Notes under the pieces: model-generated
What the model was told of the DNA's origin: nothing
The model's database searches: none
What the model saw: the letters and a program-made list of their open reading frames with translations, nothing else
Source: Candidatus Poribacteria bacterium
Lineage (GTDB): Bacteria; Poribacteria; WGA-4E; WGA-3G
DNA: 64,000 nucleotides
Assembly (NCBI GenBank): GCA_022827885.1
Contig: JAJEIP010000066.1
Coordinates: 62,001 to 126,000, forward strand
Reading direction: 5' to 3'
Made by a program: the position numbers and the translations under genes
Shown: one piece after another, positions 9,354-30,065 of the stretch
How the letters are laid out: each line of letters begins with the position of its first letter
Position numbering within the stretch: the stretch's first letter is position 1

Positions 9354-10112
9354 CTAATCTTTGTGGCAAATCATTGCGGTGATCCAACAGAACCGTTTGA
9401 GGAATGGGAGGCATTTCAGGAAAGTTATATCAATCGCTTTGAGGATGCGAAGGTTCCACCGATAAAATAGTGGGATAGAAATGCATTTCTGCCAGAACAG
9501 GGCACTCACCGCGGAGAGATGAAACTCACGATGCTCCAACTTCCCAAATTCAGCACCGACGGTTTTAATGTCCCTCACTGAAAAGTAACGCAGTTTACCG
9601 GAATACTTCAGGAACATTTTTCGGTACAGCCACACCATCGGGTGATGACGCATGTTTTCCATGAAGATCGCCTTTCCGCCCGGTTTGAGAACGCGATAGC
9701 ACTCTTTCGCAACGTGTTTATGGTCTGTGAAAACCAATACGGATTTGGAAATAATAAAATCGAAGGTATTATCGGGAAAGGCGAGATGCATCGCATCCAT
9801 CAGTGCAAAATTAACTGCCTCAGCGACGTTGTGTTCCGCTGCGCGCGCCCGCGCTTCAGCAAGCCGAAAGGGCAGTAAATCTATGCCGACAACAGAAGCA
9901 CCCCGTTTCGCCAGCAGCGTCGCAGTGCCACCAGTACCGGTACCGAGTTCCAGGACCTTTTTCCCTTCCAGATTCCCCATTTTCGGGAGCACGTACTCGA
10001 AGATGGGAAGATAAAAATCTTCCCACCAGAGCAAAAGATCTGTTTCAACACTATCGGAACGACTGGTAGGTCGCTGTCCTTTAAGGGGCAACCTATTTTT
10101 AGATTTTAGCAT
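9354..10112 (-). CDS. class I SAM-dependent methyltransferase
   Basis: A 252-residue protein. Rossmann motif I reads VLELGTGTGGTATLL, the acidic end of beta-2 is VVGIDLLPFRL, motif II is ALMDAMHLAFPDNTFDFI and motif III is YRVLKPGGKAIFMEN. The last 90 residues are basic and aromatic with no further motif. The acceptor cannot be predicted; UbiE-like, lipid or natural-product methylation all fit. ATG at 10112 has no clear ribosome binding site, and the 90 bases before it are an interspersed repeat in the opposite orientation, so expression signals may have been displaced. It follows the sugar isomerase gene on the same strand. Confidence 0.85.
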   Translation of the reverse strand: MLKSKNRLPLKGQRPTSRSDSVETDLLLWWEDFYLPIFEYVLPKMGNLEGKKVLELGTGTGGTATLLAKRGASVVGIDLLPFRLAEARARAAEHNVAEAVNFALMDAMHLAFPDNTFDFIISKSVLVFTDHKHVAKECYRVLKPGGKAIFMENMRHHPMVWLYRKMFLKYSGKLRYFSVRDIKTVGAEFGKLEHREFHLSAVSALFWQKCISIPLFYRWNLRILKAIDITFLKCLPFLKRFCWITAMICHKD

Positions 10113-10116
10113 AAAA

Positions 10117-10202
10117 AGCGCGCAGCTTGAAACGAAGTGGAAAGCGGGTCTACGGAGAAGAACATCAACATCCTAACTTTCCTTACCGAACCGCAAGGTA
10201 AA
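10117..10202 (+). repeat. interspersed repeat, CCGAACCGCAAGG type (plus orientation)
   Basis: Shares TACGGAGAAG and the ending CCGAACCGCAAGGTAAATTAAAAA with copies near 55906, 57322, 58514 and 61658. It fills the gap between the isomerase and methyltransferase genes. Confidence 0.65.
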
Positions 10203-10964
10203 TTAAAAAAATTTGCCCATCTTTCGTAGATTTTCGATGCAGCGTTCAGCACATTCAAGCGGCGGGTAGGCGTAACTTTCCTGTTCAACGATGTACCACT
10301 CCGTGCCACCAACGGTTTCACAGGCATGGAACACAGCCTCCCACGGAATCTCACCTTCACCCACGTTTGCCTTGTCATTCGTGGAGGCATACTCTTTCAG
10401 GTGCACCAATTTCGATCTACCCGGATAGCGTTCAATATACGACACAGGGTCGGCACCGGCGCGAAGGGCATGACCGATGTCAATTTGCATCACAACATCC
10501 TCACGAGTGTTCTTGCCGAATGTATCCCACGGAATTCCGCCTTCCAGCGGTGTGAATTCACCCGTGTGATTGTGGTAACCCGTAAACATCCCCGCATCAG
10601 CGATTTTTTCGGCAATGTCGTTGAAGAGTTTTGCTGTGTCGAGCCACGCTTGTTGCGAACTTTGATACGCCGCAGGGAGTCCCGGCACAATCAGATACGG
10701 GTTGCCGAGGCCCTTGTTGAACGCAACCGTTTTGGCGAGTTCATCACCGAGAAGTGTATCTATCCCTGTATGCGTTCCGGCAACTTTCAATCCGAGGTCA
10801 TCGCACATCCCGCGTAATTCTTCAGCGGTCCGGTCATAGTAACCAGCGAACTCAACACCTTCATAACCCATCTGTGCGACCGCTTGAAGCGTTAAAGAGA
10901 GGTCGCCTGCACAATCATCTCTAACCGAATACAGTTGTAACGCAATTGGAATCCTATTGCTCAT
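10203..10964 (-). CDS. sugar phosphate isomerase/epimerase-like TIM-barrel protein
   Basis: A 253-residue AP-endonuclease-2/xylose-isomerase-like barrel. Signatures: PIALQLYSVRDDCAG at the N-terminus, MGYEGVEFAGY on strand 2, GTHTGIDTL, GYHNHTGEF (metal His), DIGHALRAGADP (metal Asp/His) and LVHLKEYAS near the C-side, ending with a Glu in EQESY. Members isomerise or epimerise sugars and inositols with a divalent metal in the cytoplasm. AGGAGA lies before ATG. The oxidoreductase 53 bases upstream is on the same strand, a pairing typical of inositol or unusual-sugar catabolism. Confidence 0.87.
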   Translation of the reverse strand: MSNRIPIALQLYSVRDDCAGDLSLTLQAVAQMGYEGVEFAGYYDRTAEELRGMCDDLGLKVAGTHTGIDTLLGDELAKTVAFNKGLGNPYLIVPGLPAAYQSSQQAWLDTAKLFNDIAEKIADAGMFTGYHNHTGEFTPLEGGIPWDTFGKNTREDVVMQIDIGHALRAGADPVSYIERYPGRSKLVHLKEYASTNDKANVGEGEIPWEAVFHACETVGGTEWYIVEQESYAYPPLECAERCIENLRKMGKFF

Positions 10965-12037: not shown

Positions 12038-12124
12038 TAATTATGTCTCCTGTGGGCGCGCAATACCAGCACGCATTTTGTGTCTACTTGAAAAATCTGT
12101 CCTTGCAGAATTCCAATCCTTAAC

Positions 12125-12269
12125 AAACCTTTCAGACTTCAAAAAGATTTTGAACCAATTGTGTATCCGTGCCGACAACGAAGGCACGGCTCCTATCCTC
12201 AATAAACCTTTTCAGACTTCAAAGAGGTTCTGAACCAATTGTGTATCCGTGCCGACAACGAAGGCACGG
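12125..12269. repeat. tandem direct repeat with an internal hairpin
   Basis: Two roughly 66-base copies (12125-12189 and 12204-12269), about 79 bases apart, share AAACCTTTCAGACTTCAAA, GAACCAATTGTGTATCCGTG and the hairpin CCGTGCC-gacaacgaa-GGCACGG. The second half is identical; the first half differs at a few bases. They lie between two minus-strand genes and could act as a transcript-stabilising or attenuating hairpin pair. Confidence 0.8.
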
Positions 12270-12296
12270 TCCATATTTAATAGTTAAAAATATAAT

Positions 12297-17462: not shown

Positions 17463-19853
17463 ATGAACGACATCGCGCTTCCGATTACAAAATTAAAAGA
17501 GACGTTTCGGACGGCAATCGCAGCGGGCCCTGTGGTGGTTGTCGCGCCGACCGGTAGCGGAAAATCCACACAAATCCCGCCGTGGTGTGCTGAACTGTCG
17601 GATGCTCCAGTCCTTGTTGTTGAACCGAGACGGGTCGCATGCCGTTCACTCGCACGGTGGGTAGCAAAACAGCGTGGAGAACCCTTAGGGCATTCTGTCG
17701 GTTATACTGTCCGCTTTGAAGATGTTGGTTCCGATGCTTTAACCCGTATCCGTTTCGTCACACCCGGTGTCGCTTTGCGATATGCTGCGGGACGGGAGTT
17801 GGATCAATATGGGACCATCATCTTGGACGAATTCCACGAACGCGGTGTTGAAGCAGATCTCTTTCTCGCGATATGCCGAAAAAAACGGCGCGATGCGAAG
17901 CTCGTTATCATGTCCGCCACGATAGCCGCGCAGCACCTCGCACGGTTTATTGGTGGACAGGTGCTACAGGCGGAGGGACGGGTCTATCCCGTTGGCGTGC
18001 AATATCTCGGTGGGACAGGCGTCCCGACATCCCGCGATTTAGTGGAACGTCTTGAAAGAGGGGTGCGTCGCGCCCTCAAAGAGACCCCCGGAAATGTCTT
18101 GGTGTTCCTACCCGGAAAGGGTGAGATCAATGAGTGCCACGATGCACTTCGCAAGATGCGGCATATTGAGATTGTTCCACTGCACGGTGATCTGTCCCCC
18201 GATGCACAGGACATAGCATTCGAGACGCATTCCCAACGCCGCCGGGTCATTCTCGCAACCAACGTCGCTGAAACGTCAATCACACTTCCCGGTGTCACTG
18301 CCGTTGTGGATACGGGTTTAGTGCGCCAGCGTATCCATCAAAACCGACGTATTGTTTTAGCGTTGCGTCCGATCTCGCAAGCGTCGGCCGAGCAGCGTCG
18401 CGGACGAGCAGGTCGCCTCGGACCCGGAATCTGCTACAGGCTCTGGGAGGAACACGGACAACTTGAACAGGAAACACTCCCGGAGGTGCGGCGAGAGGAT
18501 TTGACGCAATTCGTGCTAACGGTCGCCTCAACCGGCTATCGTCCACAGGATTTGACGTTTCTTGATGCGCCACCTGATTTCGCAGTGGAACGTGCGCAAG
18601 CCGCGTTGAAAAGTTGGGGGGTCCTCTCTGACGATGGCATGCTCACAACCGAAGGAGCCAAGATCTGTGCGTTACCTGTCAATCCGCTCCATGCTCGGTT
18701 GCTCGTAAAAGCTCCACCCTTTCTTCGACGCGATCTGATCGATTTGATTGCCACTCTGGAACGTCCCGCCCCCTTATGGCAGCGTATGGCACGTATGCCG
18801 ATTGAAAAGCAGGAAACTGTTCAGACTGCACGTCAGAAAGACCTATTTCGCGATGGATGTGATGCAACGACAGCGATCCGAACGTTACGCTGCGGCGATG
18901 AGAAACGCCATCATCTCCATAGAACCGCCATTGCCGAGTGCCGCAGGATTGCGACGCAACTCAGGGCTTTCTTTCAGCTGCCTCCTGTAATGCAAGAGAA
19001 CACATCACCCCAACCTGACCGAGCCGCGCTGATCGCTTATCTTTTACGTGAGTGGGACGCTGCTGCTTACGTCCGCAGACGAAAGGGGAAGGCATGGGGA
19101 AACGGACAGGCGGAGGTTTTGCTTGATTCCGATTCACTTCTTCCGGAAGGACAGCCCGCCGCGCTGATCTTGGAAACCGTTGGTGTTGGCAAAGGCACAC
19201 GCGTTCAATTGCTCGGACGCACTGCCATGCCTTGCGCTTTTGCCGCCCTCGTCGATGCTGGGATTGGCACTTCACACCTTGCCGCACCCAGAGTGGAGGG
19301 TGAAGACATTGTTGCGGAGGTGGTAACCGAATATGCAGGAAGAGAGATCGGGCGCGAACGTCGGCCCCTTCACGGGGCATTGCTGAGAGATGCGCTGGCA
19401 TCCCTCATTCTTTCTGGAGATCTGTTCCCCGGAGTTGCGGAACACCTCACACGAGCGATTGAGGCGTGGCAGCTGCAGTGTGCCCTCAACCCTGATCCGC
19501 CTCCCGCGGAAACCGTAGGTGTGACACCCCACACATGGTTGGTCTCACGACTCGCGCTGTTGGGTGTCGAAGTCGCAGCGGAATGCCAACTCCTCTCTGT
19601 GGACGATCTGGTGTTCACTGATATAGACGCTGACACCATCACTGAAATTGAAGCGCAATATCCGAAAGAATTCTCTGTCAACGGTGCTAAGTTCGATGTA
19701 GAATACAATCCCGCCCAAAAATTGGTAACGTTGCGATGGCAGCGCGGCATCCGTCAACCCACATTGAGCACAGTCCTGCTACCCCGCTGGAACAATTGGA
19801 AAGTCCAAGTTGATCTCCGGGGGCAGCTGCGGACGGTGCGGCCCCCTTCTTAA
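17463..19853 (+). CDS. hrpB: ATP-dependent helicase HrpB
   Basis: A 796-residue DEAH-family RNA helicase-like protein. ATG at 17463 is preferred to the in-frame TTG at 17427 because a promoter occupies 17427-17455. Motifs in order: APTGSGKSTQIPPW (Walker A), VEPRRVACRSLA (Ia), ILDEFHERG (Walker B, DEFH in place of DEVH/DEIH), MSATI (III), ATNVAETSITLPGV (V) and QRRGRAGRLGPG (VI). The C-terminal third contains the HrpB-specific domain, ending near TLRWQRGIRQPTLSTVLLPR, where bacterial HrpB typically ends with SKYPRHPWP-like sequence; that part differs here. The bacterial role is poorly understood. The stop overlaps the stop of the convergent downstream gene by four bases. Confidence 0.93.
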   Translation: MNDIALPITKLKETFRTAIAAGPVVVVAPTGSGKSTQIPPWCAELSDAPVLVVEPRRVACRSLARWVAKQRGEPLGHSVGYTVRFEDVGSDALTRIRFVTPGVALRYAAGRELDQYGTIILDEFHERGVEADLFLAICRKKRRDAKLVIMSATIAAQHLARFIGGQVLQAEGRVYPVGVQYLGGTGVPTSRDLVERLERGVRRALKETPGNVLVFLPGKGEINECHDALRKMRHIEIVPLHGDLSPDAQDIAFETHSQRRRVILATNVAETSITLPGVTAVVDTGLVRQRIHQNRRIVLALRPISQASAEQRRGRAGRLGPGICYRLWEEHGQLEQETLPEVRREDLTQFVLTVASTGYRPQDLTFLDAPPDFAVERAQAALKSWGVLSDDGMLTTEGAKICALPVNPLHARLLVKAPPFLRRDLIDLIATLERPAPLWQRMARMPIEKQETVQTARQKDLFRDGCDATTAIRTLRCGDEKRHHLHRTAIAECRRIATQLRAFFQLPPVMQENTSPQPDRAALIAYLLREWDAAAYVRRRKGKAWGNGQAEVLLDSDSLLPEGQPAALILETVGVGKGTRVQLLGRTAMPCAFAALVDAGIGTSHLAAPRVEGEDIVAEVVTEYAGREIGRERRPLHGALLRDALASLILSGDLFPGVAEHLTRAIEAWQLQCALNPDPPPAETVGVTPHTWLVSRLALLGVEVAAECQLLSVDDLVFTDIDADTITEIEAQYPKEFSVNGAKFDVEYNPAQKLVTLRWQRGIRQPTLSTVLLPRWNNWKVQVDLRGQLRTVRPPS

Positions 19854-20812
19854 TCCGCTTTCATTTTTCCCCACACTGTGGTAAGCAACTGCGGTTGCGG
19901 TGCAACAGGCAACGTCACAAATGCTGGATCGAACCAAGAGGGTGTCATGTTTAAACCACGACGCGTCAGTTGTTTTTTCCGTCGAGTCTGCAAATCAATT
20001 GTGACAATTTGACGATCCCCGTCTACGGCTTCCTCCGTATAAACCAGTTTTTCGCCATCCGGTGACCACGCCAATCGAAAAATACCCAGCGCAGGTTTAC
20101 CAATTTGCTTCAATCCGCTCCCATCGCGATTTGCAACATGAATTGTGTCCCTATCGCCCAGGCCCCATTTTAACCAAGAAAACGCCAGTTTTGTCCCATC
20201 TGGGGACCACGCCGGACCGTACATCCACGACGCTTCATTCGGTAGAAACGCTCGTTTTTTCCGAGAACGGAGTTCCGCAATGTATATCCGACGACTATGT
20301 GCGCCAGCAACGAACGCGATCTCCTCTCCATCCGGGGACCACGATGGATTACCACCCTGTATCTCCGCCAAAGCCACCTGAACGCCACCGATACCGTGTA
20401 TCGTCCCGGTTTGGATGCTCCATTGCGGCATTTCCGCATGATAAGCAATCCTTTGTCCATCCGGTGCCCATGTCGGTTCCCTTCTCTGTGTCTTTTTCTT
20501 AAAAACCCGTCGCACATTTCGTCCATCCGCATCCATCAGAAAGAGATCGCGGAGGCCGTCACGGTTAGAAACAAAAAGAATGTGCTCACCTGTCGGCGAC
20601 CAGACCGCGGAGAAATCACCGGCTTCATGTCGTGTTAAGTTCACCTGATCGCTGCCATCGGGATTCATAACGTAGATTTCCCAATTCCCGTCGCGATTTG
20701 ATGAGAACGTAATCTTCTCAGTTTTCGGTGCCCTCGCGCATAAGGGGTAAACACTCGCTAACACGAGCGCGAAACTCAAACTACAAAGAACGAAAAAACG
20801 TATGCCCTTCAT
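19850..20812 (-). CDS. secreted TolB-like PD40 propeller with WG-x-MK tail
   Basis: A 320-residue protein; ATG at 20812 follows AGGAGAGG. A signal peptide (FVLCSLSFALVLASVYPLCA) precedes six PD40/WD40-like repeats, each with A-W-S-P-D-G-x-x-I/L-x-F (for example SAVWSPTGEHILFVSNRDG, RRREP-type TWAPDGQRIAYHA, PAWSPDGTKLAFSW). The first unit opens FSSNRDGNWEIYVMNPDGSD. It ends PVAPQPQLLTTVWGKMKAD, a variant of the shared tail. TolB-like propellers bind proteins or peptides in the envelope; this one lacks the TolB N-terminal domain. The stop codon interlocks with that of hrpB (TTAA). Confidence 0.85.
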   Translation of the reverse strand: MKGIRFFVLCSLSFALVLASVYPLCARAPKTEKITFSSNRDGNWEIYVMNPDGSDQVNLTRHEAGDFSAVWSPTGEHILFVSNRDGLRDLFLMDADGRNVRRVFKKKTQRREPTWAPDGQRIAYHAEMPQWSIQTGTIHGIGGVQVALAEIQGGNPSWSPDGEEIAFVAGAHSRRIYIAELRSRKKRAFLPNEASWMYGPAWSPDGTKLAFSWLKWGLGDRDTIHVANRDGSGLKQIGKPALGIFRLAWSPDGEKLVYTEEAVDGDRQIVTIDLQTRRKKQLTRRGLNMTPSWFDPAFVTLPVAPQPQLLTTVWGKMKAD

Positions 20813-20885
20813 AAAATTTCCTCTCCTGAAATATAGCACTGATAGTGTATTCGTCTTGTATTTTCATCTACCGCCTTTGCGGTCG

Positions 20886-21260
20886 TTACCACGCTTCAGT
20901 TTGGCGTCGGTAATGTATCTTATATATAGTGCCAGCACTGTTCACGTAGACATAGGTATGATAATAATCATCGCGTCCGGTAGCCGTTTCTCCCAGTGCC
21001 GCTAATAGATTGACAACAATCTCAGCTTGTGACTCAATGTCATAAACGAAAGTATGCCTATAGTTACCTTGACCTATGGGCGTTGACTGTTTCGGATCGG
21101 GGTTTTCCTCCAGAAATTCTTCAAAGGATTTGTCCAACCAAGGACTATAGAAAGTTTCAACACCTTGATCATGTTCAACGGTGTGTGTCGCGCATCCGAT
21201 TACCGAGAATATTAGCACACAGATGATAAACAGTGCCGTGTATTCAGATCTGCAATTCAT
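20886..21260 (-). CDS. small lipoprotein
   Basis: A 124-residue protein. The N-terminal FIICVLIFSVIGC is a lipobox (V-I-G-C), so it should be lipidated and envelope-anchored. The mature part has FYSPWLDKSFEEFLEENPDP and YHTYVYVNSAGTIYKIHYRR, a beta-rich end resembling SmpA/OmlA-like or DUF-type folds, but I cannot assign a family. GGAGGAACC precedes ATG. It lies downstream of five paralogous lipoproteins on the same strand but does not resemble them beyond the lipobox. Confidence 0.7.
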   Translation of the reverse strand: MNCRSEYTALFIICVLIFSVIGCATHTVEHDQGVETFYSPWLDKSFEEFLEENPDPKQSTPIGQGNYRHTFVYDIESQAEIVVNLLAALGETATGRDDYYHTYVYVNSAGTIYKIHYRRQTEAW

Positions 21261-21323: not shown

Positions 21324-21956
21324 CTATTCAATCCGTTCGAAGGTGCAGCGGATGTTCCCGCGGTGGAGCCACCCGTCGGGTGCTAATATCATACCGAGAT
21401 CTAAAGTTAAATCCATCTGTCCCTCTTTCATCAAGATTCTTGGTATGTCTATCTTTAGTATTGTAGATAAGGCTTCGCCATCACTTAAAAGTACCTGCTG
21501 AGGAATGCCCTTTGCGAAATTGAATAAGAGATCCGGTATCTTGGGACCGGAGATTGGATAGAAATGGATTCTACCACTCTTCGGTTTATCTCCCCTATAG
21601 ACTGCCCGTGTTGTGTATGTTCCATGGGTCTTCGTTGCCATCTTTTCGATCTGGTAATTATAAGCGGCATCTCCACTTTTCCAAAATCGAAGTGTAAGTC
21701 CTTTAAGCCTACGGGCAGTGCGTGCGGCTTTCACTTTCAGGATCTCTTCGCTCCCACCCCGTTCCTCAACGACGAGTTCAAGAAATCGCCACTTACCAAG
21801 CATATCGTCCGATAAAAAGTCTCGGCTGCGTTTATATGTATCTTTCCGTTGGGCATCCTCGTACGCCTCACGACGGATGTCACGCTCGTTCTGCATCTTC
21901 TGATATTTCGCAGAGGTGCAACCAGTGAATACCAGAATCAGAATGTAGAATAACAT
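21324..21956 (-). CDS. lipoprotein of a five-member tandem family, member 5
   Basis: A 210-residue protein. ATG at 21956 is preferred over upstream codons because it gives the length of the best-conserved paralogues (209-210) and places the lipobox (LVFTGCTS) correctly; it is 15 bases after the previous stop, so reinitiation is likely. Family architecture: lipobox, a short charged helix (YQKMQNERDIRREAYEDAQR), GKWRFLELVVEE, a helix (ILKVKAARTARRLKGLTLRF), a beta-rich middle, and a C-terminal MDLTLDLGMILAPDGWLHRG followed by IRCTFERIE. The function is unknown. The GKWxF opening and up-down strands suggest a lipocalin-like fold. This is the most diverged member. Confidence 0.75.
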   Translation of the reverse strand: MLFYILILVFTGCTSAKYQKMQNERDIRREAYEDAQRKDTYKRSRDFLSDDMLGKWRFLELVVEERGGSEEILKVKAARTARRLKGLTLRFWKSGDAAYNYQIEKMATKTHGTYTTRAVYRGDKPKSGRIHFYPISGPKIPDLLFNFAKGIPQQVLLSDGEALSTILKIDIPRILMKEGQMDLTLDLGMILAPDGWLHRGNIRCTFERIE

Positions 21957-21970
21957 TAAAGTCTCGGTCT

Positions 21971-22849
21971 TTATTCGATCCGTTTGAAAGTACATCGCAG
22001 TCCCCCCGTTCGCATCCAACCTTGCGGTGTTAAGTCCATATCCCCATAGAGGACTAAATACAGCGTATCCTCCGTCACCGTAATCCCTGCGATTGAAGCA
22101 ATTGAATAGGAATTTTTTCCGGAGGCTCTCCCTCCAATTTGTGCTCCCATTCTGCGTCTTCTTTCGGCATCCGCCTGTTTCTTTTTCGCAACCATCTGTT
22201 TGATAGGCTCGGAACCGAACAGGAACTCAAGCATCTTCGGTCCCGTCCGTCTGTTAAAACTGATAAATGGGAACGGATCGTCGCCATATCGCTTGGTGGT
22301 GATGGAACATTGACCTGTGACATTCGTGCCACGATTGCTACCACTGTAGTGATACGAGCCACGGTCCTCGGAAAATTCGATCGTCAAGTTTTTACGCGTA
22401 GAGGCGACGAGTGCCGCTTTCGCGTCGAGTATCCGCTGATTGGATTCTTCATCCTCCACCTCAATTGGCGGTAGACGGGTCGCATTTGCTTCTGGAGATT
22501 GTGGGTCTGCCTCTATGTTCGGGAGGTTTTGGAGGGTCGTCTGTTCGCCGGTAGTACCTTTAGAAGTCACCGTCGTAGATGGGGTTGATGCGTCAATTGC
22601 CTGCTGCGACATCGGGTTGATCCGCTGCGCATTCACATTACCTTTTTCCACCTCCAAGCCGACATACTGCCATTTGCCGACGAGAAGGTCTTTTACGGTT
22701 TCTTTAACCCTTTCCGGGTTGTGTTTTTGACGCGCCGCATCATAAGCCTCAATTAAACGTTCTCGTTCATACTGCGTTTCTGGGGATACCAGCGTCCCAC
22801 AACTGGTGAACACGATCACCAGAATACCCACGGCTATTAATATTTTCAT
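21971..22849 (-). CDS. lipoprotein of the tandem family, member 4 (long form)
   Basis: A 292-residue protein. ATG at 22849 follows AAGGAGGGCAGCA. Lipobox VIVFTSCGT. It has the family's Y-E-R-E-R helix, then VGKWQYVGLEVEKGNVNAQR, then a low-complexity insert rich in Ser/Thr/Pro (about residues 85-130) absent from the 210-residue members, then ALVASTRKNLTIEFSEDRGS, RGTNVTGQCSITTKRYGDDP and the C-terminal signature DTLYLVLYGDMDLTPQGWMR plus RCTFKRIE. Closest to member 3, which has the same insert. Envelope-located; no function known. Confidence 0.78.
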   Translation of the reverse strand: MKILIAVGILVIVFTSCGTLVSPETQYERERLIEAYDAARQKHNPERVKETVKDLLVGKWQYVGLEVEKGNVNAQRINPMSQQAIDASTPSTTVTSKGTTGEQTTLQNLPNIEADPQSPEANATRLPPIEVEDEESNQRILDAKAALVASTRKNLTIEFSEDRGSYHYSGSNRGTNVTGQCSITTKRYGDDPFPFISFNRRTGPKMLEFLFGSEPIKQMVAKKKQADAERRRRMGAQIGGRASGKNSYSIASIAGITVTEDTLYLVLYGDMDLTPQGWMRTGGLRCTFKRIE

Positions 22850-22936
22850 TGCTGCCCTCCTTGCTTCACACGCAGAGTTTACCAAAATCCGCGAAATCCG
22901 TCTCAATCCGCGATTCAGACAATTATAACCTATCCT

Positions 22937-23857
22937 CTATTCAATCCGCTTAAAGGCACATCGCATGCCACCCGTCCGTATCCAACCCTTCGGAGTGAGT
23001 TCCATGTCTCCGTGTAAAATTAGATAGAGCGTGTCGTCCGCCACCTCAATTCCCATTGCCGAAGTTGGGACGTAGGAGACCCCTTTGGGAGCCGCTTTTT
23101 CGCTGCCTTTTCCACCCAACTGATAGATATTTTCATCCTGATTCCATAATGGCGGCTGGTTGGTATTTACAAAATTTTTCCCTTCAACCCGCTGCATGTT
23201 CTCGGCATAGGCTTGCTTGCCTCTGGTGGACATAAGCCGTGCGGGTTCAGACGTAAATAGGAATTCAAGCATCTTCGGACCTGTACGGCGTCTAAACCGG
23301 AGAAGCGGCAAAGGGACATCCCCGACGCGCGGCGCAATGACGTTACATTGCCCTGTGACCTTCCTGCCACGATTGCTACCGCGATAATAAAAGGAGGTCC
23401 GCTCCTCATAAAATTCAAGCACTAAATTTTTACGGTTCGCCGCAGCTAAAGCCATCTTCGCCGCAGCTATCTTTTGGTTGTCTTCACGCCCCTCGACTGT
23501 GATTGGTGATAATTGCACCCCATCCTTTTCAGAAACCGGATCCGCTGTCTCATGCTGAGGCACTTCGAGGGGAAGGGGTGTTTGGACACTCGCATCTGTT
23601 TCACCTTTTTCGGATTTTGGTGTCGCCGTTTCTGCGTTGACAGTCTCATTTTGGATGTCTATGCCGACAAACTGCCATTTGCCGGTCAACTGTGCCTTTA
23701 TCTCACTTTTCATCTCCTCCGGGTCGAATCTCATGGGCGCATCTTCGTAATCCTCAATGGACCTATTGCTTTCCTGCTGCGCTTCTTGGTATAGCACGCT
23801 CGTACAACTCGTAAACACGACTGACACGAGGATGATGAACGGTATTAGCGTCTTCAC
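22937..23857 (-). CDS. lipoprotein of the tandem family, member 3 (long form)
   Basis: A 306-residue protein starting at GTG after AAGGAGAAAAAACC. Lipobox VVFTSCTS. Family segments: LTGKWQFVGIDIQNETVNAE, the Pro/Thr-rich insert shared with member 4, AAANRKNLVLEFYEERTSFY, RGRKVTGQCNVIAPRVGDVP, RTGPKMLEFLF, and the ending DDTLYLILHGDMELTPKGWI plus RCAFKRIE. Members 3 and 4 share RRTGPKMLEFLF, indicating a recent duplication. Confidence 0.78.
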   Translation of the reverse strand: MKTLIPFIILVSVVFTSCTSVLYQEAQQESNRSIEDYEDAPMRFDPEEMKSEIKAQLTGKWQFVGIDIQNETVNAETATPKSEKGETDASVQTPLPLEVPQHETADPVSEKDGVQLSPITVEGREDNQKIAAAKMALAAANRKNLVLEFYEERTSFYYRGSNRGRKVTGQCNVIAPRVGDVPLPLLRFRRRTGPKMLEFLFTSEPARLMSTRGKQAYAENMQRVEGKNFVNTNQPPLWNQDENIYQLGGKGSEKAAPKGVSYVPTSAMGIEVADDTLYLILHGDMELTPKGWIRTGGMRCAFKRIE

Positions 23858-23926
23858 GGTTTTTTCTCCTTCGTCTGCGTAATTCGGGGTTTTTTAACCG
23901 CTCCCATAACACAGGCCTCTACACTT

Positions 23927-24559
23927 TTATTCTATCCGTTGGAAAACACAACGGATGCCGCTACTACGAGCCCAACCGTTGGGTGTTAGTTCCATTGTTC
24001 CGTACATCGTCAGGGACAACGTGTCATCTGTCACCGAAACACCGAGCCAATTATCTGCGGCGGCTTTCATGGAAACGGTATCTTGGTTTTTCAATCTACT
24101 TGCGGACATATTCGTTAAGAATTCGTGGAGCGGCAAACCTGTATCCCGAAAAATGCGTAGGTAGGGAAAGGATTCATCGCCGTAACGCCGTGAACTGATT
24201 TTGAAGCTGCCCGTTACCTCTGTGTCTCCGTTCTTACCGCGATATCGACGGAACACGTTTCGGTCCATAAAGAAATCCAGCGTAAGGTTTTGGCGAACCG
24301 TCGCATGAAGTTCAGCCTTTAACGCCGCGATCTCTTCGCTCACGTCGCCTTCGGCAACCTCCATATCCAGGAATTGCCAGCTGCCAATCAGTTTATCGGT
24401 TAAGGCGGTTTCCAATTGCCGCGGGTCGTGTTTTCTGAGAGCATCTTCATGGGCTGCGCGTAGCCGATCGCGCTCGTTCTGCATCGCTTGGTATTCCACG
24501 CTGGTGCACCCTGCGAACACCAATAATATTGTTAAGATGAAGGCACTTAATATTTTCAT
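23927..24559 (-). CDS. lipoprotein of the tandem family, member 2
   Basis: A 210-residue protein. ATG at 24559 overlaps the stop of member 1 (ATGA), so translation is coupled. Lipobox LLVFAGCTS. Then YQAMQNERDRLRAAHEDALR (charged helix), LIGSWQFLDMEVAEGDVSEE, VRQNLTLDFFMDRNVFRRYR, GKNGDTEVTGSFKISSRRYG, and the ending LSLTMYGTMELTPNGWARSS plus IRCVFQRIE. Together with member 1 it gives the minimal form of the family. Confidence 0.8.
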   Translation of the reverse strand: MKILSAFILTILLVFAGCTSVEYQAMQNERDRLRAAHEDALRKHDPRQLETALTDKLIGSWQFLDMEVAEGDVSEEIAALKAELHATVRQNLTLDFFMDRNVFRRYRGKNGDTEVTGSFKISSRRYGDESFPYLRIFRDTGLPLHEFLTNMSASRLKNQDTVSMKAAADNWLGVSVTDDTLSLTMYGTMELTPNGWARSSGIRCVFQRIE

Positions 24560-25185
24560 TCCGCACTCCTTTCAAAGTAACACCGCACACCCCCGCTTTG
24601 CACCCAGCCGTTAGGACTTAATTGCATCTCGCCGTGCATTGTGAGATATAACCTGTCCTCCCTAACGGAAATACTGATCTCTTTCGCTGTGTCAAGTCCT
24701 TGAGCACTTGACAAACCGAGCGGTTTCCCATCGGAACTTGCTGCGAAGAGGAGTTGTGAAATCTCTGGACCTGCGCGTCTGATAAACCGGATGAAGGGGA
24801 AGGGTTCGTCGCCGTATCGCACAGTGATGACAGTGAATTGGCCCGATACCTCCGTGTTACCGTTTTTACCACGGTAATTGTATATACCTTTCTCCTCGAA
24901 GAATTCAAGGGTGAGGTTCTTCAGGTCAAGCGCATAGAGAGCGGCTTTGGTTTCGGCGACTTCTTGGCTAACACTGCTTTCCTTGATCTCAAGGTTCAGG
25001 AATTTCCACTTCCCGAGGAGTGTGTCGGTTACGTCGGTTTTGAGTTTCAGTTCATTGTGTTCCTCGCGAAGGTCTTCGTAATTCTTGAGCAACTGATCGC
25101 GTTCTGCTTGCATTTTTTGGTACTCGACACTTGTACAACCTACGAGCATCAGAGCGCAGATACCAAAGATAATCCAAGTTTTCAT
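24556..25185 (-). CDS. lipoprotein of the tandem family, member 1
   Basis: A 209-residue protein, first in the array and directly behind a good promoter (25239-25267). Lipobox CALMLVGCTS. It has YQKMQAERDQLLKNYEDLRE, GKWKFLNLEIKESSVSQEVA, LDLKNLTLEFFEEKGIYNYR, GKNGNTEVSGQFTVITVRYG and LYLTMHGEMQLSPNGWVQSG before RCYFERSAE. The alternation of charged helix, GKW strand and G-D/E-M-x-L-(T/S)-P-x-G-W ending is shared by all five. Sits downstream of the TonB receptor gene on the same strand. Confidence 0.8.
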   Translation of the reverse strand: MKTWIIFGICALMLVGCTSVEYQKMQAERDQLLKNYEDLREEHNELKLKTDVTDTLLGKWKFLNLEIKESSVSQEVAETKAALYALDLKNLTLEFFEEKGIYNYRGKNGNTEVSGQFTVITVRYGDEPFPFIRFIRRAGPEISQLLFAASSDGKPLGLSSAQGLDTAKEISISVREDRLYLTMHGEMQLSPNGWVQSGGVRCYFERSAE

Positions 25186-25238: not shown

Positions 25239-25267
25239 ATTATATCAGAGCAACCTATAAATGGCAA
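25239..25267 (-). promoter_or_regulatory. promoter of the five-lipoprotein array
   Basis: On the minus strand TTGCCA (25267-25262), 17 bases, TATAAT (25244-25239), 54 bases before the first lipoprotein start at 25185. Confidence 0.75.
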
Positions 25268-25293: not shown

Positions 25294-27726
25294 TCAAAAT
25301 TCGAGCGTCAATCCAAAATAAATGATCCGCGGGAGTTGCGGGGCATCAAAGACTTCCCGTTCAATGCCGACCTCCTGACCTTGGACATCAAGGGTTGCCT
25401 CCTCAAAAATGAACTGTATCGTATTTTTGCGGTTGTATACATTCAGAATATCAAGAAATCCACCCACACGCACTCCCCAGAGTCTCCATTTGTAACTCAC
25501 CCGAAAGTCCAACTTATGATACGGTGCGAGTTCAGTGCTTAATTGTTCGTCAGCACTCGCCAAAAGCGGGTTCAATCCGCGCGTTACGGGGTCCTGGATG
25601 AGCACAATGGAACTGATAGGTGCTTCCGAGGTGCCGCTGAGATACTGCCATTTCGCACCCACCTCAAAATTCGGTGTGAAGTTATAGTTAGCAACCACAC
25701 TGACGATATGCGTGTTATCGAAAAGGTAGGGTTGGTAAGCAGTGTCTGGATTCTCGCGTCGCTCCGCGTGTGTATAAGCATACGAAATCCAACCGAAGAA
25801 CTTATCTGGGATCCGATGCCGTAAGAATACCTCTGCACCCCCGACGTATGCCGTCCCCTGATTGAGATAGTTCGCGACTTCATCGGGTGTTACCAGTTTC
25901 TGTGCGTCCTTATAGTAGGTAGCAAGTTTCAGTTCGGTCTGCGATGAGAGTTCGTGTTCCAATTCCATGATATAATGCCGTGTGAGACTTGATGCCAAGG
26001 CACGATTGCCATCTTCTGCCAACAGTTGAGAGGGTTGTGGACTCTGTTCGTAATGTCCATACGCGAAGCGGAGATTAGACCTGTTTGGCAGTATGAAACT
26101 CACACTGCCGCGGGGTTGAATGGAAACCTGCTGTGTCACATTCAGGTAGTCAACTCGAACACCGAGGGCTACAGACAGAAACGAAAGCGGGTCGTAGCGT
26201 CCTTGGAAGTACCCTTCGGCACGGTAAAAATCGTGCCCAAATTCGTCGTGTATCTCTTCCACACCCGTTAGCTGTGTTTCCGGTCCAATCCGTGTTTCCT
26301 CTCCGATGACCTCCCCATCTTCAATAATTGGGGTAACCCTTGTTACATCTTCATCACTTGTTTCGTATTCTGGGAACCTACCATCTTCAAAACTGTTAGC
26401 GGGGCTAAAGGAGAGGAGAAAACCCGGTTGAAATTGAAATTTCGGTGTGAACCGATAGGATACATCCTCACGGAGCGTATAGACCGGCACGTTAATCTTT
26501 ACATCGTAGTGGCCATAGTCAGCGGAATCGAGTACCCACTCGCCTTCGGGGTTCTGAGAGACTTCTTCATTGAACGGAGCTTCAAATATGATTGTGAGAA
26601 AATTGAAAGAACGGGTCAGGGACAGATGTGAGGTAAGATTTTCGGTGAAGTCTGAACGGAGATGAACACCTTGTCCATTGAAACCATTTTGGAAAAGGAC
26701 AGAAGCGAGTCCACCTTCGACCGTCTGAACTCCTGTTTCGTCTTCAATGGTAAATTCACTGCTCTCTTCGACAATTTTAAAATGATCGGTTGCAGCGAAA
26801 GCGTTGAGTGTGAGGCGATGTTTTTCACCGAGCGGATAGGCAAATTTAAGCTGATAATCCGAAAAATAGGGAAACTGCTGTTTCTGTCCAGTTTGTTCTT
26901 CAAGAATCGGACCAGCGATGAGGTCTAAGTAACTCCGCCGCCCAGAGGCAGAGATATATCCCTTATCACCAATTTTGGCTTCGAGTAACCCTTCAGAATA
27001 AAGGATATTTAAATTGAATTTCCCGCCCCACGACTTTTCGATGCGATCGCGAGCATAGATGTCAAGCACAGCTTGTGAATCCAGTCCGAATTCGGCACCG
27101 TAACCCCCGGCGTAGATGTCGATTGTCTCAATGGTCTCTGAACTGATGGTTGACAACAAACCGCCCCAGTGAAACGGATAACCAAGCGGAGTCCTATCGA
27201 GATAATAAAGGTTCGAGCCCGGTTCACTCCCACGAATGTAAAGTGCCCCGAAGTAATCGTTTGGGATGCCGATACTCGGAAGTGTCGTCAATCCCTTAAG
27301 GGCATCGTTGGCGGTCCCCGGAATCCGTAGGAGTTCACTCCCACGGATTTCTGTGCGACTTACCGTCGGTGGAAGGCGTTTTCCCTCTACCACGACTGCT
27401 TCAAGTTTAAAGACTGCTCCGAGGTGTATTTTGACTTCAGTGGTATCGCCGCTACTGATGTCCACCGACACTTTTGTGGGCGCGGCTTCTATAGGATGTG
27501 TTACAACAAAGGTATAGGCGCCTGCAGGCAGTTCTGTGAATCGGAAGACCCCGTTTTCATCGGTTTTTTGGTGCTGGTCGGTTTCGAGAATATGAACATC
27601 AGCGTCTACGAGGGATTTCCCTGTGCTTCGCTGATAAACGGTTCCTTGAATATCGCCTGTTTCGGCTATAACAGAGAGTGGCAGGGCGGTGAACACAAGC
27701 ATAACTATGACGAATCTCAACTTCAT
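25294..27726 (-). CDS. TonB-dependent outer-membrane receptor
   Basis: An 810-residue protein. Signal peptide (RFVIVMLVFTALPLSVIAET), then a carboxypeptidase-regulatory-like domain (GDIQGTVYQRSTGKSLVDAD ... GVFRFTELPAGAYTFVV), then a plug with LRIPGTANDALKGLTTLPSI, LYIRGSEPGSNLYYLDRTPL and IDIYAGGYGAEFG, then a 22-strand-type barrel ending in the aromatic IIYFGLTLEF. The plug resembles those of CarboxypepD_reg-type receptors for siderophores, vitamin B12 or glycans; no STN signalling domain is present. Upstream on the same strand lies a membrane-tethered sigma factor, recalling FecI/FecA pairs, with a 10-bp inverted repeat between the two genes. Confidence 0.9.
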   Translation of the reverse strand: MKLRFVIVMLVFTALPLSVIAETGDIQGTVYQRSTGKSLVDADVHILETDQHQKTDENGVFRFTELPAGAYTFVVTHPIEAAPTKVSVDISSGDTTEVKIHLGAVFKLEAVVVEGKRLPPTVSRTEIRGSELLRIPGTANDALKGLTTLPSIGIPNDYFGALYIRGSEPGSNLYYLDRTPLGYPFHWGGLLSTISSETIETIDIYAGGYGAEFGLDSQAVLDIYARDRIEKSWGGKFNLNILYSEGLLEAKIGDKGYISASGRRSYLDLIAGPILEEQTGQKQQFPYFSDYQLKFAYPLGEKHRLTLNAFAATDHFKIVEESSEFTIEDETGVQTVEGGLASVLFQNGFNGQGVHLRSDFTENLTSHLSLTRSFNFLTIIFEAPFNEEVSQNPEGEWVLDSADYGHYDVKINVPVYTLREDVSYRFTPKFQFQPGFLLSFSPANSFEDGRFPEYETSDEDVTRVTPIIEDGEVIGEETRIGPETQLTGVEEIHDEFGHDFYRAEGYFQGRYDPLSFLSVALGVRVDYLNVTQQVSIQPRGSVSFILPNRSNLRFAYGHYEQSPQPSQLLAEDGNRALASSLTRHYIMELEHELSSQTELKLATYYKDAQKLVTPDEVANYLNQGTAYVGGAEVFLRHRIPDKFFGWISYAYTHAERRENPDTAYQPYLFDNTHIVSVVANYNFTPNFEVGAKWQYLSGTSEAPISSIVLIQDPVTRGLNPLLASADEQLSTELAPYHKLDFRVSYKWRLWGVRVGGFLDILNVYNRKNTIQFIFEEATLDVQGQEVGIEREVFDAPQLPRIIYFGLTLEF

Positions 27727-27948: not shown

Positions 27949-30021
27949 TTAGTCCCTCTTAACTGTTTCCAAAGCGTCCATTAAAAATATGTGGTATCCT
28001 TTTTCATTTATATGGAATTCATTCGATGTTCGGTAAGGTAAATGACCTATCAACTCCAACTGGGGCGATAGGATAAAAGAATGTACCGAATGATCCGGGT
28101 TGTGTGTGATAGTCTTTTCATAGGCTTCGGTGACCCGTGTCGCTAATTTGCTTGCCCAATCACCCTTTTCCCCATTCTGAAGTTCCGGTAGATCTCTTAG
28201 GAGCAGGAACACACTGACATAGTGTTTATTGAGCAACTTGATGATCTTAGAATCAGAGAGGACAACTGCCCTCAAGGTTTTACCGGTCCCTCAGCAAGAT
28301 TCATCGTCAAAAGCCCCCCATGTTAGAACGACATGAATTGGACGTTTTTTAGTTTGTGCTTGTGTAACAACATCTTCAATAGGGTACCTCTCAATTTCTG
28401 AAAACTTGTAGAAGGCAGCCTCTAACAAATCCTTCGCTTCTTTTTCAGTGATGGCAGTCTCCCAAACAATATCATGCTGATCCTCTGGGTTCTGCCCGAC
28501 AAGTTCCATGCGCGGAACGAAAACTATATCTGCCAAGCCATAGGCGTTAATGTCAACATTGGTATTGCGAGGTGGAAGATAGAGCCAAAATTCGCGGATC
28601 GTGCCATCTTTCCGGTTGAGTATGAGTCGTCCAGTAAATTGTGCTGGCGTAAAGTAAGCACCAGCCTCTCTATCCAGTAGGAATTCGGCGTGGATTCTGA
28701 AGACGATTTCGGCATAAGTTGGCGAGACTGCACGTAGGCACGCATAGGCACCTTCTGACTCAAATCTACCTGAACGAAACAGTGTCAGTCCAAAAAATTC
28801 CAGGACAAACTCTGTGCCCGGATTGTTATGCATCTCCGCAGTCGCTCCGGGATGGAATTGGCGAAGGAACGGTATAATGTTTTTAACATCAAGTTTCCAT
28901 AGATGTCCTACGGTGAAACTTTCCTTCGGAAAAAAAACTCTGAAAGCGTCTGTCCCATATTCTTGGCTCGAATGAACCGGTGAAAGATTATTAAAAAGGG
29001 CAGCGTGCTTGGGCGAGTTAAGTGCAGCATCAGCAATCGGGGCCCAATATGCATCCACCTGTGTTGTCTTGTTTCTATTTGAGGAATTCCCTGGGGTGTC
29101 GGATGTTGAGACTTTCTCAGAAATCTGCGGATCCGCATTGCCCTTTTCATCCTCGGACGCAGGCTTTCCAATCTGATTTCGGATCGAGGGTTTGGAATCC
29201 ATATTATGGATGATAAGTGCATCCACAAGTTCAATTGTAGGTTGAGATACTGATTCAAAACTATAGGGTCTCTGAAAGCGAACAAGATACCGATTGCTCG
29301 TACCTAACAAGAGTATCACCAAAAGCGTAAACGCACCAACAGCAATCCATGGAAGCAAGGGTTTCGTAGCCGTTGGCGGTATGGGGTCAATATCGGTGAC
29401 TTGCCGCATAATGTTCTTTATTAGATTTTCTGATAACTGAACCCCACCAAGAGTTTCCTGAATCAAAAGTTCTTGATCTGATCGCAGACGCTTTCGCGCA
29501 CGCTGGAGCCGGCTGGCAATTGTATTCGCCGATACCCCTAAGAAGTTACCTATCTCCTTGAGAGTCATTTCACCGAGATAGTAAAGCGTCACAACAGTGC
29601 GTTCGCTCTCTGGTAGTGTTTCAAGCAGTTTTTCAACGAGTTCGTACTGACGTTCGGTGGCTTCTGCCTCGCGCTGTTCGGAGATGTAACGTTCATAATC
29701 TGACTTTTCTGTTTCTTTCACGGATGTCTCCTCCAACGATTGAACTGTTGATTTCCGTTTGCGCATCCAAGCAATGCAGTGCCGATTAGCGATAACATAG
29801 AGCCACCCAGCAAATTGATCAGGATTTTTGAGCGTCGAGAGTTTTTTATACACCTGAAGGAAGGTGTCTTGTGTAATCTCCTCAGCATCGTGAAAATCAC
29901 CAATCTTCCGCCACGCGAGAGCATGAACACTTTTTTGGTACTTTCGGATTAAGCGGCTAAACGCAGCCTCATCGCCGGACAATATTTCGTGAATCAACTG
30001 GGCATCGTCTTCTCTTTCCAT
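27949..30021 (-). CDS. membrane-tethered ECF sigma factor with C-terminal thioredoxin-like domain; probable selenoprotein (in-frame TGA at 28291-28293)
   Basis: Read through the TGA, this is 690 residues. ATG at 30021 follows AGGAGGGTACCTC. Residues 1-90 are sigma region 2 (IRKYQKSVHALAWRKIGDFH, DAEEITQDTFLQVYKKL) and about 130-185 region 4 (LPESERTVVTLYYLGEMTLK, EIGNFLGVSANTIASRLQRA). A single membrane helix follows (PWIAVGAFTLLVILLLG, about 224-240), then the juxtamembrane segment FQRPYSFE shared with three other sigma proteins, a roughly 250-residue beta-rich domain I do not recognise, and a thioredoxin-like segment. That segment reads PIHVVLTWGAFDDESC, TGA (codon 577), then GTGKTLRAVVLSDSKIIKLL. 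The frame stays open for 113 more residues with the helix and strand expected after a thioredoxin active site. A hairpin 18 bases after TGA fits a bacterial SECIS. Alternative: nonsense mutation, leaving a 576-residue protein. Confidence 0.75.
28258..28273 (-). promoter_or_regulatory. SECIS-like hairpin after the in-frame TGA
   Basis: In the transcript GAGGGC-AGUU-GUCCUC (28273 down to 28258) gives a six-base-pair stem, one G-U, with a four-base loop. It starts 18 bases after the UGA, within the distance range of bacterial SECIS elements, whose apical loop normally carries G and U. Confidence 0.5.
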
Positions 30022-30065
30022 GAGGTACCCTCCTAATCTAATGAACAAATGATAGCGTTATAATG

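Follow-up and report, generated by a model that had tools for sequence, protein, structure and literature searches.

Introduction

The calycins, which include the FABP/CRBP proteins and lipocalins (L-PGDS and E. coli Blc, for example), are up-and-down β-barrels of eight or ten strands that diverge beyond sequence recognition, so that a sequence match to a calycin profile is not strictly required of a member of the fold class. SusD-type and hemophore-type surface lipoproteins serve as partners of their receptors, and NlpE is a stress-sensing lipoprotein. The calycin structural signature is a tryptophan on the first strand paired with an arginine on the last (PMC2954199). NlpE and TP0751 have been treated among the bacterial barrel lipoproteins, TP0751 being reported as periplasmic and heme-binding (PMC7521688).

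The locus described here lies in a 64,000-nucleotide stretch of DNA from Candidatus Poribacteria (termed the window) and encodes a tandem array of lipoproteins. These resemble the calycins in a predicted barrel of about eight strands, the Trp/Arg pair and their best Foldseek matches, and differ in that there is no sequence-level match, the TM-scores are low and the array proteins carry a long N-terminal helical stalk and a helix in the first inter-strand loop. The lipid anchor, N-terminal extension and calycin barrel (here predicted) are also features of the bacterial lipocalin lipoproteins TP0751 and Tpp17 (PMC7521688), but no sequence relationship to these was detected in the PDB sequence search, and the N-terminal part of TP0751 is disordered whereas that of the array proteins is a predicted helix; their genes, moreover, stand in tandem arrays. 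What appears to be new is the sequence family; the architecture, a lipid anchor with a small barrel, is already known.

Array Layout and Proposed Transcription Unit

Five neighboring open reading frames, all present, occupy positions 21324-25185 on the minus strand and encode the lipoproteins listed below.

24556-25185, minus strand: copy A, 209 amino acids, first gene of the array
23927-24559, minus strand: copy B, 210 amino acids, start overlapping the copy A stop by 4 nt (ATGA)
22937-23857, minus strand: copy C, 306 amino acids, GTG start, with a P/S/T/E/Q-rich insert past the first strand
21971-22849, minus strand: copy D, 292 amino acids, with an insert of the copy C kind
21324-21956, minus strand: copy E, 210 amino acids, starting 14 bp past the copy D stop

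Local alignment scores for pairs of copies range from 129 to 631 compared with 47-59 for the best shuffled partners, and the five copies are paralogs, far above chance. Copy A is the best conserved member (73-89% identity to its orthologues), copy D is closest to copy C (53% identity) and copy E is the most divergent of the five. A longer reading frame for copy E begins at 22019 and runs into copy D; initiation at the ATG at 21956 yields MLFYILILVFTGC and leaves 14 bp between the two genes, and the start is best set there. In one relative (L039, 10103-11002) copy E is broken into two reading frames, which looks like a frameshifted or decaying gene, or an assembly error. The initial annotation had described five consecutive minus-strand paralogs with lengths of 209-210 and 292-306 residues, both of which are borne out, and had proposed an estimate of divergence among the copies; aligned over their whole length these are 34-53% identical to each other.

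The ATGA overlap between copies A and B is followed by gaps of 69, 87 and 14 bp. Of 29 related arrays, 26 retain this spacing of -4 between A and B, and the overlap of the reading frames would couple the translation of the two products and fix their ratio. Just upstream of copy A is a strong promoter-like site matching at 11 of 12 positions (25267-25239).

25239-25267, minus strand: promoter-like site, TTGCCA-N17-TATAAT with an extended -10 element (TG)

The pattern TTGCNA-N16/17-TATAAT is found upstream of copy A in 23 of the 31 sequences compared, the window included. Overlap, short gaps and conserved site together agree with the earlier proposal of one operon under one promoter. The genome has just one exact match to the extended pattern; use of the motif as a regulon marker was dropped and no regulon is claimed.

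Conserved Residues and Sorting Signal

The motif positions common to the five copies comprise the lipobox cysteine, Gln-26, Glu-28, Gly-58, Trp-60, Phe-95, Tyr-104 and Gly-115 and, toward the C terminus, Gly-193-Trp-194 and Arg-201-Cys-202-x-Phe-204-x-Arg-206. The shared motifs first noted by eye are real, with eight positions invariant over 115 homologues (Cys-17, Gly-58, Trp-60, Phe-95, Tyr-104, Gly-115, Gly-193 and Trp-194). Arg-201 is present in 107 of the 115 (93%) and replaced by histidine in 6, and a lipobox was seen in every row inspected. The low-complexity insert described for the two longer copies is a P/S/T/E/Q-rich stretch of about 56-67 residues following the first predicted strand in C and D, which also have a second extra stretch further along, a basic loop rich in Lys, Arg and Ala.

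The residue at lipobox position +2 among the homologues is Thr (71), Ala (25), Gly (10), Asn (1) or Lys (1) and never Asp. With Asp lacking at this position, the proteins would by the E. coli rule most likely be sorted to the outer membrane, a rule that may not be that of Poribacteria; the +2 residue says nothing about which face of the membrane they occupy.

Predicted Fold

The AlphaFold2 model of copy A, calculated with 64 homologues, has a mean pLDDT of 80.6 and shows a signal sequence followed by a long helix and a roughly eight-stranded barrel. The helices span residues 2-42 (signal and stalk) and 45-56, the latter preceding the first strand, and the strands are formed by residues 58-67, 92-98, 101-108, 111-124, 127-138, 170-174, 178-190 and 193-206. 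The copy B domain, modeled alone with AlphaFold2, yields a barrel like that of copy A, though less regular (pLDDT 77.9). In Foldseek comparisons of copy A with the PDB, 49 of the best 50 matches listed are FABP/CRBP/CRABP-type barrels and the one exception, a tardigrade SAHS protein, belongs to the same fold class; the better matches for the copy B domain include FABPs, UnaG, lipocalin-type PGD synthase, lipocalin 2, nitrobindin and streptavidin. TM-scores for copy A are low (0.23-0.33 by query and 0.32-0.49 by target) and those for the best FABP matches of the copy B domain are about 0.35-0.42 and 0.40-0.50, with high rmsd values in both cases, and the calycin class is on this account probable and not proven. 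Trp-60 on the first predicted strand and Arg-201 on the last correspond by position to the calycin signature pair, whose last-strand member can be Arg or Lys and beside which a 3-10 helix caps the barrel in calycins. The models thus answer the suggestion of a lipocalin-like fold, at low TM-scores, with a domain that is probably of calycin (FABP/lipocalin) type.

Family Novelty and Distribution

Searches of Pfam, NCBIfam, PHROG, PADLOC and the PDB returned no convincing match and none at a curated cut-off, the sub-threshold matches in the first four falling mostly on the signal peptide or helix. Pfam lipocalin and FABP profiles matched none of 64 members nor the sister-genus members. The best PDB sequence profiles, nitrophorin 4 (E = 0.7) and MamB (E = 0.8), were both taken as chance. 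NCBIfam NF047408 (SA0632 family lipoprotein) resembles copy A over residues 1-53 (E = 5.7e-5), but the score of 22.7 bits compares with a cut-off of 70, and with only the signal peptide and charged helix covered the match is probably compositional. A search of the literature on poribacterial lipoproteins found nothing on the family of the array. No description of the sequence family appears to exist in the databases searched, and its original designation as unrecognized stands after a profile search in which no well characterized lipoprotein family was matched.

In the genome of the window the five array genes are the sole copies of the family. Members are present in 46 of 85 poribacterial genomes scanned, all in one taxonomic family and in 4 of 22 genera, and the scanned genomes from the rest of the order, class and phylum yielded none. 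Arrays of 2-7 copies occur in three of the genera, and the fourth has a single, more distant copy in 6 of 18 genomes. A single-protein contig scan, which reaches close relatives only, placed all close homologues in Candidatus Poribacteria and gave no member outside it. The comparison of copy number between relatives thus fits the lineage-specific expansion that had been proposed.

Genomic Neighborhood

The array is flanked by the following genes.

25294-27726, minus strand: TonB-dependent-receptor-like protein with a carboxypeptidase-regulatory-like domain, upstream neighbor
20886-21260, minus strand: small protein of 124 amino acids with its own lipobox (FSVIGC), 63 bp past copy E
19850-20839, minus strand: PD40/WD40-like β-propeller protein with a signal sequence (Pfam PD40, E = 9e-32)

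The 124-residue lipobox protein lies outside the family of the array and is possibly a member of the operon; in L039, L046, L047 and L066 its homologues follow the arrays. The PD40 gene is the downstream neighbor in three of the four genera, one of them the single-copy genus. It follows the arrays in most loci whose sequence extends far enough, and in L092 and L087 it is adjacent to the family gene. The family gene of the single-copy genus is preceded by ThuA-like, enolase-superfamily and lipoprotein-like genes. In L087 the lipoprotein-like gene (9944-10690, minus strand) encodes 248 amino acids and immediately precedes the single-copy member, and a gene of similar length takes its place in L086, L088 and L089. 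Upstream of the receptor-like gene in the window is an ECF σ70 factor (28291-30048, minus strand) whose regions 2 and 4 fall inside residues 29-190 and whose C-terminal extension, almost 400 residues long, has no Pfam match. An intergenic tandem repeat of about 80 bp in 2.1 copies is located at 12112-12273 of the window.

Age of the Copies and Selection

Trees built from 115 and 94 copies, in which the root between position clades is weakly resolved, group the sequences by position in the array and not by species. Supported clades spanning species are formed by A, C, the D type, E and two lineage types of B, and gene order within the array is conserved among related species. Extra D-type copies in some species point to later duplication as well, and copies have been lost or moved in some relatives, as in L042 where only A and D are still together. 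The dN/dS values of the window copies against their orthologues are 0.07-0.17 for A, 0.09-0.14 for B, 0.18-0.24 for C, 0.12-0.18 for D and 0.15-0.26 for E; these are gene-wide averages in which several of the dS values lie above 1 and are rough, and they indicate purifying selection. Taken together, the position clades, the low dN/dS, the near-fixed A-B overlap and the conserved promoter argue for the retention of specialized paralogs. Of the initial reading of the array as a lineage-specific expansion reflecting surface diversification, the first part holds and the second is not supported: judged from these comparisons, the expansion is lineage-specific but old.

Proposed Function

We favor, with moderate confidence, a reading in which the array encodes outer-membrane, calycin-like lipoproteins on stalks that bind small hydrophobic ligands and are expressed from one operon of retained paralogs. 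Each product has a signal peptide with a lipobox, evident in the sequence, that would provide the lipid anchor; the charged helix of about 35 residues would act as a stalk, and the C-terminal domain is the predicted calycin-type up-and-down β-barrel of about eight strands. Sorted to the outer membrane, as the +2 residue suggests, the barrel may bind or carry small ligands that are hydrophobic or amphipathic, a role suggested by the fold. Old duplication within one poribacterial family would have given rise to distinct, co-expressed orthologous types that were kept, and their retention suggests a divided ligand range or hetero-assembly rather than antigenic variation.

An alternative that we consider unlikely is that the lipoproteins are accessory partners of SusD or hemophore type delivering ligands to the upstream TonB-dependent-receptor-like protein, whose gene, in 24 of the 28 arrays sequenced far enough upstream, stops 67-517 bp before copy A. 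This adjacency, reminiscent of SusD-like lipoprotein genes, is confined to the home genus and the receptor gene is absent from the sampled loci of the other three genera (g2, g3 and g4); the conserved promoter of the array is placed between receptor and copy A, and each of the 73 genomes of the order has receptor homologues, even where it lacks any family member. SusD-like proteins are in addition built from helical repeats, unlike the predicted barrels of the array. The sister-genus loci and the receptor distribution led us to drop receptor partnership as the main reading. A second receptor-like copy, 85% identical, is present in the same genome (G000:C81, L093:9607-12057) with no lipoprotein array beside it.

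The proteins could instead be envelope spacers or sensors that bind no ligand, the barrel docking and the helix crossing part of the periplasm in the manner of NlpE. The high conservation of Gln-23, Gln-26 and Glu-28 in the stalk helix among the 115 homologues fits such a role, as does the resemblance of the P/S/T/E/Q-rich inserts of C and D to flexible linkers, but among the genes immediately flanking the array no regulator or two-component system was seen to be conserved, and the calycin signature pair present in this family is absent from the E. coli NlpE domain (PMC7521688); we judge this explanation rather improbable. That the array is a surface antigen family diversifying under host or phage pressure, as initially suggested, is very unlikely, since the orthologue clades by position across species and dN/dS of 0.07-0.26 in all copies stand against the tandem paralogs in 2-7 copies depending on species, the two lineage types of copy B and the variable insert sequences of C and D from which it might be argued.

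The favored reading of ligand-binding stalked calycins can be extended, at the level of speculation and with little expectation that it is correct, to five proteins each tuned to its own ligand that would jointly form a poribacteria-specific system for exchange of sponge-derived lipids or pigments at the outer membrane. The reach of the finding is modest, the family being known from one taxonomic family. It occurs almost throughout one genus of uncultured sponge symbionts and offers a clear hypothesis on fold and ligand binding that can be tested, and it indicates that a tandem lipoprotein array in sponge symbionts can be an old, conserved toolkit and not a diversifying surface coat.
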